23,471 bases of DNA. Origin: a virus. Location: the IMG/VR virus record IMGVR_UViG_3300031707_004404, positions 1-23,471 of that record; one strand, 5' to 3'. The position numbers were made by a program, and so were the translations under genes. Positions 5,888 through 7,667 of the stretch are shown here, in pieces. The notes beneath the pieces are model-generated. The model was not told the DNA's origin. It made no database searches and was given only the letters and a program-made list of their open reading frames with translations. Within the stretch, counting starts at the first letter, position 1; every line of letters begins with the position of its first letter.

Positions 5888-6366
5888 GTATACCAAAACT
5901 ATTCGCACTGGCGGGGATTAAACTTCAGCCAGCCGGGGAAGATCAATGGAAGGCGCTTTGCCCGTTCCACGGTGATTCTAGCCCCTCGTTTTGGGTCTAC
6001 GATGACGGTACGTACCATTGCTTTGGCTGCTTAGCGCACGGGAGTATATTTTCATTGTCCGATGCGCTTATGTCGGACCAGGGATACCTACCTGATATAA
6101 CAAGTGTAAAAGATGACCGTAAAGAGATGCTTAATAAACTACATAAACAACTAGAAATCGACCTAAGAAAAAAACTTATAAATCAGGATCCTACGTTGAG
6201 GTGTTTACTATACGATATTTTTGACCTCACATTTTTCCATGCGCAGGCTAAATTAAATTATACGGATAAGTCCATTTTGGAGGTAGCTCTCTTCGTGCGC
6301 AAAAAATACAGCCAGATACTCAAGCGTATAGTTAAATTATCTGTCCGCAAGATTGTTTTTAGTTGA
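5884..6366 (+). CDS. Stand-alone CHC2 zinc-finger (DnaG primase N-terminal-like) protein
   Basis: This 160-aa protein begins with a CHC2-type zinc ribbon as in DnaG primases: CPFHGDSSPSF ... YHCFGC, with ligands C26, H29, C46 and C49 and the usual aromatic and proline positions. In DnaG this domain recognises the template and is followed by an RNA polymerase core with a TOPRIM fold. Here only about 100 residues follow, helical and Lys-rich, with no recognisable TOPRIM (no ExG...DxD) or helicase-binding domain. No frameshift is evident: the frame closes at TGA 6364-6366, and the next frames downstream do not continue a primase. It is either a primase accessory or zinc-binding specificity subunit, or the residue of a split primase whose catalytic part lies elsewhere. 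It overlaps the DnaB-like gene by 4 bp, which fits a primosome role. Confidence 0.8.
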   Translation: MSIPKLFALAGIKLQPAGEDQWKALCPFHGDSSPSFWVYDDGTYHCFGCLAHGSIFSLSDALMSDQGYLPDITSVKDDRKEMLNKLHKQLEIDLRKKLINQDPTLRCLLYDIFDLTFFHAQAKLNYTDKSILEVALFVRKKYSQILKRIVKLSVRKIVFS

Positions 6367-6390
6367 CAACGAAATATACCTATATATAAT
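6363..6390 (+). promoter_or_regulatory. Consensus sigma-70 promoter
   Basis: TTGACA at 6363-6368, a 16-bp spacer and TATAAT at 6385-6390 match both hexamers of the bacterial housekeeping promoter exactly. It overlaps the stop codon of the zinc-finger gene and would start transcription near 6397, about 26 nt before the start of the acidic protein gene, which has an AAGGAG ribosome binding site at 6412-6417. Expected to be strong and usable by unmodified host RNA polymerase early in infection. Confidence 0.75.
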
Positions 6391-6422
6391 CATCAACGCT
6401 ACAAGAATACATAAGGAGAGCC

Positions 6423-7667
6423 ATGCCGTTTTTAGATATAGAACAGCAATGCTTAAGGGACTTGGAGGACTGTATGGAAAAAGTGCCGATTTCTTCTGGC
6501 GAGGTTGGCGAGACGTTTTTGACTGTTGGCGGAAAAAAAGTACAGATCATGCAAAAAAATGCCAACAACATTCAAATTACCGTTAATGCTACTAGAAAAA
6601 TAATATATGTAGATCCTACCTATATGGTAACTCCTCTAGGAAACAGAAAAAATCCTATGGTGGTAGTAGCAGGCAACAAAAACGTCAAAGAAAAGAGAGA
6701 GGCCCCAATGAAAGACAAGAATGCCCTTCGTATCGAAGCCATTTCTAATGAAGAGGAGGATCTTGAGGAGGAGCTTGAGGACGAGGACGAGGACGAGGAC
6801 GAGGACGATCTTGAGGCAGAAGCGCTTACAGATGATGAGGCAGTAGAGGAAGAGGAAGATGATGAGGAAGATGATGAGGAAGATGATGATGAGGAAGATG
6901 CCGTAGAGGAAGAGGAAGATGATGAGACAGAAGCCGTGGAAGAGGAAGATGCCGCCGCAGAAGAGGAAGAAGAGGAGGAGAAGGAGGAGGTAGAAGAGGA
7001 AGATGATGAGGAAGATGCCGTAGAAGAAGAGGAAGAAGAAGAAGAGGAGGAGGAGGAAGAGGAGGAAGAGGAAGATGATGAGGAAGATGCTGCCGTAGAA
7101 GAAGAAGAGGAGGAGGAGGAGGAGGAGAAACAGTATAGCACTAAGTTCGCCACCAAAGAAGAGGTTGAGGCAATGGGAAAAAGACTCGCAAAAGTCGAGG
7201 CGGTGCTAGCCGGGATGCGCAAGCCGCAAAAAGTTCTGACTTCTAAAAAAGAGGCGGCAGCCGCGCCTGTGCGGCGAGGGAGGCCTCCCAAGATTAGGAC
7301 TCCAGAGAAGGTGCCCGAGAAGGTCCGCAAGGAGATCGAAAAGACAACGAAGCCTGGGAAGAAGGCCAAGATAAGAGAGGCGCAGGCCAAGGTGCGACCA
7401 CTTGTATCTTCGAACAAGGCGCCGGACGACAGCAAGCCTAAGCATAGCCGCCAGATCGGTTTGGTGGTCAAGCTCCTGACCAGGAAGGCGCAGACCCGAG
7501 ACACGCTCGCGGAAGCCATTCGCGAGGCGGGGCTGGGCAAAGACAAGGACGATAAAGACATTAAAAATTATATCAGCGTCATGCTCAACAAGCTCAAAAC
7601 TATGTATGAGATCACGAGCCCGAAGCGTGGTGTTTACCGCATCACGGGCGAGAAAATCGCTGAGTAA
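6423..7667 (+). CDS. Highly acidic protein with AT-hook-like motif and C-terminal winged-helix-like domain
   Basis: I do not recognise a named family for this 414-aa protein. Four zones are visible. Residues 1-95 form a compact, beta-rich-looking domain. Residues about 108-236 are almost pure Asp/Glu with interspersed Ala-Val. Residues about 240-340 are Lys/Arg/Pro-rich and include RRGRPPK (284-290), which resembles an AT-hook. The last 75 residues (from KHSRQIGLVVKLLTRK to GVYRITGEK) read as a helix-turn-helix with a wing. AAGGAG lies 5-6 nt before ATG 6423, and a perfect promoter lies upstream. An in-frame ATG at 6708, preceded by GAGAGAGG, could give a second product lacking the N-domain. 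The acidic-plus-winged-helix makeup recalls RNA polymerase delta subunits or histone-chaperone-like proteins, but the domain order differs; this is only an analogy. GC content rises from the N- to the C-terminal third. Confidence 0.8.
   Translation: MPFLDIEQQCLRDLEDCMEKVPISSGEVGETFLTVGGKKVQIMQKNANNIQITVNATRKIIYVDPTYMVTPLGNRKNPMVVVAGNKNVKEKREAPMKDKNALRIEAISNEEEDLEEELEDEDEDEDEDDLEAEALTDDEAVEEEEDDEEDDEEDDDEEDAVEEEEDDETEAVEEEDAAAEEEEEEEKEEVEEEDDEEDAVEEEEEEEEEEEEEEEEEDDEEDAAVEEEEEEEEEEKQYSTKFATKEEVEAMGKRLAKVEAVLAGMRKPQKVLTSKKEAAAAPVRRGRPPKIRTPEKVPEKVRKEIEKTTKPGKKAKIREAQAKVRPLVSSNKAPDDSKPKHSRQIGLVVKLLTRKAQTRDTLAEAIREAGLGKDKDDKDIKNYISVMLNKLKTMYEITSPKRGVYRITGEKIAE
6751..7130 (+). repeat. Purine-rich low-complexity repeat (poly Asp/Glu coding)
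   Basis: The + strand here is nearly all GAG, GAA, GAC and GAT codons. Imperfect units of the form gaagatgatgaggaagatg recur near 6857, 6888 and 7000, joined by gccgtagagga-type spacers. The repeats code for the acidic zone of the protein at 6423-7667. Such tracts are prone to slippage, so length differences between related phages, or assembly errors, are likely. Confidence 0.85.

Follow-up and report, generated by a model that had tools for sequence, protein, structure and literature searches.

The window, that is, the whole stretch of DNA analysed here, is an IMG/VR virus record of 23,471 bases, and the gene under study is located in a replication module, where it and the genes around it are on the plus strand. 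The module comprises genes for a helicase (1853-3304), a protein of 182 aa of unknown function, a DnaC-like loader (3806-4516), a DnaB-like helicase (4520-5887), a CHC2 zinc-finger primase protein (5884-6366), the ORF of interest (6423-7667; 414 aa), a family A DNA polymerase (7701-10223), the N-terminal domain of which resembles uracil-DNA glycosylase, a RecA-like protein (10126-11268) and an SSB-like acidic protein (12124-12810), followed by SbcD/SbcC-like genes. Module genes without a profile match are named for what we take them to be from their motifs. The ORF starts at 6423, preceded by the Shine-Dalgarno (SD) sequence AAGGAGA (6413-6419), and has a second in-frame ATG 17 codons further on, at 6474, with an SD sequence of its own (GGAGGA, 6464-6469; the whole element spans 6464-6476). 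The longer product is probably real, since two related phages (L002 and L004) share the Met-Pro beginning at the first start. The second start corresponds in position to the joint between a sigma domain and a barrel domain in fused relatives of the protein, which are described below.

Upstream of the ORF, at 6363-6390 on the plus strand, lies an exact sigma70-type promoter (TTGACA-N16-TATAAT), with the TGA stop codon of the primase gene inside its -35 hexamer. A sequence-only reading of this DNA had described the site as exact and rare in the window, and the counts bear this out: positions 1-20000 contain no other 12/12 site, the runner-up scores being 10/12, and first-order Markov simulations allowing spacers of 15-19 bases gave 0.01 exact sites expected by chance per window, with 1% of the simulated windows holding at least one. 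In L002, the closest relative (helicase 78% identical), a counterpart (TTGACT-N16-TAGAAT, 9835-9862) occupies the same intergenic spot after the primase gene. Because in both phages the stop codon of the primase gene falls within the -35 hexamer while the 16-base spacers are unlike at most positions, the hexamers look conserved between the two sequences, although this is modest evidence; no similar promoter was seen by eye in the other relatives with upstream DNA inspected. As the promoter is of the type recognized by the main sigma factor of the host, the gene could be made without phage factors.

The encoded protein is predicted to consist of two folded ends joined by a long charged and disordered middle. 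In an AlphaFold model built with six aligned sequences, residues 18-73 (6474-6641) form a five-stranded beta-barrel of the SH3/KOW type (pLDDT about 93) and residues 340-407 (7440-7643) a winged helix with a net positive charge (pLDDT about 90-91), whereas residues 75-242 have pLDDT values below 50 and most of the chain outside the two domains is disordered. The acid tract at residues 111-236 (6753-7130) is a low-complexity repeat array, predicted to be disordered, in which 126 residues, about 80% of them Asp or Glu, carry a net charge of -99; counted over residues 111-237, there are 101 acidic residues, and the longest unbroken run is 22. As the tract is repetitive and the L002 and L005 contigs stop inside it, its assembled length may be inexact. 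It is followed by a predicted helix (residues 245-264; 7155-7214) and by a basic linker containing the AT-hook-like motif RRGRPPK (residues 284-290; 7272-7292). The sequence-only reading had thus given a fair description when it spoke of about 130 mostly Asp/Glu residues, a basic RRGRPPK segment and an apparent winged helix; it had pointed to both ends as worth modelling, and there the C-terminal winged helix appeared as anticipated while the folded N-terminal barrel had not been foreseen.

Comparison of the predicted domains with the PDB placed the barrel among SH3/KOW-type structures, e.g. ribosomal L2, Spt5 KOW and Tudor/PWWP domains, and the C-terminal part among winged helices of many kinds, with every Z score below 8 at both ends. 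Replication and nucleoid proteins are included among the matches, which on these models are to be taken as folds and not as functions. In a viral fold library, the best matches were small phage proteins of about the size of the barrel, mostly unnamed or uncharacterized. No credible match was obtained when PDB sequences were searched with profiles of the barrel, the winged helix and the sigma part of the relatives, and sequence profiles gave no link to known RNA polymerase (RNAP)-binding domains. Several candidate matches were set aside: those to Outer Surface Protein A cover only 12-15 residues; the Pfam families Trp_repressor, TFIIF_alpha, CDC45, Nop14 and Ies4 gave sub-threshold or low-complexity artefacts; and the Mrr N-terminal domain (PF14338) reached about 20 bits against a cut-off of 29.5, in one of eight members.

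The gene was found in eight further IMG/VR phage records, reached via neighbouring genes (helicase and polymerase) and afterwards via profiles: a search with the DnaB-like helicase led to L002 and L003, a helicase profile to L004, a winged-helix profile to L040 and L041, and a polymerase profile to L053, L054 and L055. Profile searches of the DNA of these records located the barrel in each of the nine; the winged helix is present wherever the contig reaches so far, weakly in L053 (E 0.06). The genetic context is likewise constant, with the CHC2 primase gene directly upstream (9/9) and the polymerase gene downstream wherever the contig extends, and the gene is absent from the more distant polymerase relatives inspected. 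All complete members have in common the barrel, an acidic linker and a basic winged helix. The linker varies from 42 residues with a charge of -13 (L055) to 267 residues, and its net charge reaches -78. A GRP core in a basic context occurs in the window and, as GRPKG, in L040 only, and the basic linker is not conserved, so the AT-hook was rejected as a defining feature. Since the motif is confined to two members and the tract shrinks to 42 aa in L055, the very long acid tract and the AT-hook are, by this comparison, exaggerations in the window of a family trait and not its core. Beyond these records, a tblastn search of a collection of 50,697 GenBank phage records with the window protein gave no match, relatives being undetected at the sensitivity used; single-sequence scans of IMG/VR with both protein ends returned nothing; and the winged-helix profile found no member in bacterial and archaeal genomes. 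Literature searches retrieved no description of the barrel/acid/winged-helix architecture.

Some other features of this phage group were noted in the same records. The SSB-like proteins of the window and of L004 (15287-16054) end in alternating Lys-rich and Asp/Glu-rich blocks, and that of L004 carries the AT-hook-like GRPKG; charged low-complexity tails seem, from their sequences, to be common in the group. L004 also has a second gene (3777-4217; 146 aa), the product of which weakly matches the winged-helix profile at its C-terminus (E about 1e-4, one genome). The polymerase genes of L040 (8275-12009) and L041 (8201-11278) contain a long, intein-like insert, and in both records the RecA-like gene is enlarged as well (706 and 1038 aa).

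In five of the relatives (L003, L040, L041, L053 and L054), the same frame starts 166-267 residues earlier, and the extra N-terminal part is sigma-factor region 2, so that the fused chain runs from sigma region 2 through the barrel and the acidic disordered linker to the winged helix. The profile of phage RNA polymerase sigma factors PHROG_1740 matches four of these long forms (L040, E 8e-8; L003, 6e-5; L054, 1.5e-3; L041, 7e-3), each match spanning only part of its 567 positions, and Sigma70_r2 matches two of them by one-genome statistics. The sigma part of L053 is identified through alignment to the other long forms only (E about 1e-24). For the L003 model, all 50 PDB matches listed are sigma factors, the best being SigC of M. 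tuberculosis (Z 12.1, rmsd 1.7 over 84 residues); beyond residue about 130, where sigma region 4 could follow, the confidence of the model is low. Predicted fold and sequence thus agree in placing the five long forms with region 2 of the sigma70 family. A search with the sigma alignment found no trace of the domain in any frame of the window. Other sigma-like genes are present in these phages. In the window, a protein of 92 aa encoded beside the SbcC-like gene (16114-16392), and conserved in six of the nine records, resembles a small helix-turn-helix of the sigma region-4 type; its relatives match the region-4 positions of PHROG sigma profiles (L003, E 3e-4; L053, E 0.005), and by sequence it might serve the region-2 fusion as a sigma-4 partner encoded separately. 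Separate canonical sigma factors (PHROG_351) are encoded by the L004 phage (L046, 2432-3316; E 1e-27) and the L041 phage (L048, 848-1366; E 2e-32), the records of which measure 72.6 kb and 58.7 kb, respectively, so that the latter has a separate sigma as well as the sigma fusion and the former a separate sigma only.

The joint between sigma region 2 and the barrel has features of a translation start. In each of the five fusions, an in-frame ATG marks the beginning of the barrel, and an SD-like sequence lies a few bases upstream of it (hybridization energies of -7.9 to -9.5 kcal/mol). Compared with synonymous-codon shuffles these sequences are mildly unlikely overall (Fisher p 0.036), the signal being mild because many of the residues preceding the Met are Glu and Lys, the codons of which are themselves SD-like. 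The joint start may give rise to another product that lacks sigma, or it may be left over from the merging of two genes, and the sequences are no more than suggestive here. In the polymerase tree, the nearest relative of the window is the sigma-fused L041 (support 100/99), and the two nest with the sigma-fused L003 and L040 (100/99); L004 and L055, both sigma-less, form a separate clade (100/99). As the window is nested among sigma-fused forms, the sigma part was probably lost in its lineage. Given a fused ancestor, the simplest history that the tree allows is one of two sigma losses, other histories being formally possible. Sigma-less members occur in two lineages, so the tail can function with no sigma in cis. 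The phage of L054 (about 129.0 kb) has another barrel copy, on the minus strand of L130 (1263-1385); it is homologous from the internal Met on and is interrupted by a stop codon.

Because the protein is fused to sigma region 2 in its relatives, it most likely works on RNAP. We give an about even chance to the reading, drawn from these sequence comparisons, that the gene encodes a phage transcription factor acting on the host RNAP, namely the accessory portion of a phage sigma factor, which in the window has become detached from the sigma domain. The sequence-only reading had offered a DNA mimic, a histone- or chaperone-like protein and an RNAP-binding factor; the last is the best of the three by virtue of the five sigma region-2 fusions, even though binding itself is deduced from them, and the other two are less supported. 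Beyond the sigma fusion in the relatives, the steps of the mechanism are those that we infer. The host holoenzyme would make the free protein early, from the host-type promoter. Docking on RNAP, beside a phage or host sigma factor, would fall to the barrel, perhaps with the winged helix. Like the tail of delta or sigma region 1.1, the polyacidic tether would compete in the main channel with DNA or RNA, remove complexes that are weak or stalled and bias RNAP in favour of phage promoters. The basic winged helix, in the window together with the AT-hook, would contact promoter-flanking DNA, and until the complex forms it would be restrained by the acid tract and so kept off random DNA. A wider proposal, which can be put forward only tentatively, is that these phages have an undescribed class of sigma factor, with region 2 and the barrel/acid/winged-helix module in cis and an internal start between them from which the tail is also made by itself, and that deletion of the sigma part in the window has left the tail to serve RNAP as a free accessory, expressed from a consensus promoter of the host type. 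The window protein would then be a phage counterpart of delta, sigma region 1.1 or TFIIF, and the group would offer a natural pair of fused and split forms such as the literature on T4 gp55/gp33 asks about.

The location of the gene in a replication module, and fold matches with Z scores below 8 that include some replication and nucleoid proteins, speak against an action on RNAP, as do the sigma-less members in two lineages and the negative profile searches for RNAP-binding domains. The location and the fold matches could instead indicate a replication or nucleoid accessory, whose winged helix and basic linker would coat DNA or bridge it in the way of histone H1, Rok or the archaeal Rpa2 winged helix while the acid tract buffers or chaperones, to the benefit of primase, helicase and polymerase. 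The fixed position between the primase and polymerase genes would suit such a role, as would the basic linker and AT-hook of the window and winged-helix matches to the H1 domain of yeast Hho1p, Rok and the archaeal Rpa2 winged helix. We nevertheless consider it doubtful, since five relatives are fused to sigma region 2, the fold matches are unspecific and neither the basic linker nor the AT-hook is conserved.

The charge of the acid tract (-99 over 126 residues) and a strong promoter suited to early expression would also be expected of a stand-alone DNA mimic that sequesters or blocks a host DNA-binding protein, such as a defence nuclease or a nucleoid protein, and is anchored by its folded ends. 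Known DNA mimics are mostly folded, whereas this tract is predicted to be disordered; it varies widely in length and charge, down to 42 residues and -13, and the conserved parts are the folded ends, so this explanation is unlikely. Even less probable is that the gene is a decaying leftover of a lost sigma fusion, without present function. The apparently derived loss of sigma in the window, the repetitive nature of the acid tract and the decayed barrel copy in the L054 phage would agree with decay, but the window has an intact barrel and winged helix and L002 an intact barrel, both phages have retained the promoter hexamers, and sigma-less forms persist in two lineages.

If the RNAP reading is true, a single gene position presents a phage sigma factor in two states, joined to an RNAP accessory module with an acidic tether and freed from it, and pairs such as L041 (fused) and the window (free) could be used to ask what a sigma factor gains from the acidic linker and the winged helix. 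Phage proteins of 'unknown function' would become nameable, and a phage clade for whose protein no relative was found in 50,697 GenBank phage records at the sensitivity used would likely reprogram host RNAP.

Among known systems, the RNAP subunit delta (RpoE) and sigma region 1.1 share the general layout of a small folded domain of winged-helix type and a long acidic disordered part, and the acidic tail of delta displaces nucleic acid from the main channel of RNAP and favours sigma exchange (PMC7749165). In delta the winged helix is N-terminal and the C-terminus acidic, whereas in the window protein a barrel and the acid tract precede a C-terminal winged helix. The comparison with RpoE delta and HARE-HTH domains proposed in the sequence-only reading therefore stands for the layout and fails for the family: the HARE-HTH profile (PF05066), which finds its matches in B. 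subtilis, gave none at E<=10 in eight records. Delta structures were absent among the 50 fold matches listed, which has no bearing on kinship. The parallel with delta is, by analogy, likely to concern the way of working and not family membership. The long forms match the phage sigma factors of PHROG_1740 in their N-terminal part, whereas the window protein is without a sigma domain. Phage T4 likewise combines a sigma region-2-like protein (gp55) with a separate RNAP accessory, the co-activator gp33, which binds the RNAP beta flap and the sliding clamp, the two parts being split in T4 and fused in the five relatives found here; a T4 review asks why T4 phages have no fused gp55/gp33 form (PMC2988020). 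Sigma homology is absent from gp33, and no barrel/acid/winged-helix layout is described for it in the text consulted. In eukaryotes, the alpha subunit of TFIIF (RAP74) and the TFIIIC subunit Sfc1 share the general arrangement of a barrel, a charged middle and a C-terminal winged helix, and the acidic tail of Sfc1 inhibits its own DNA-binding domain (PMC3799434). The RAP74 C-terminal domain is among the winged-helix fold matches (1nha, Z 7.4), whereas the TFIIF barrel belongs to a triple-barrel dimer module formed with a RAP30-type partner and the window barrel matches SH3/KOW folds; the match to the TFIIF alpha profile (PF05793), which covers low-complexity sequence and at 13.2 bits stays below the cut-off of 27.1, was rejected. 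By analogy with these systems, the best reading is that the protein would work in the manner of RNAP delta, sigma region 1.1, T4 gp33 or TFIIF.
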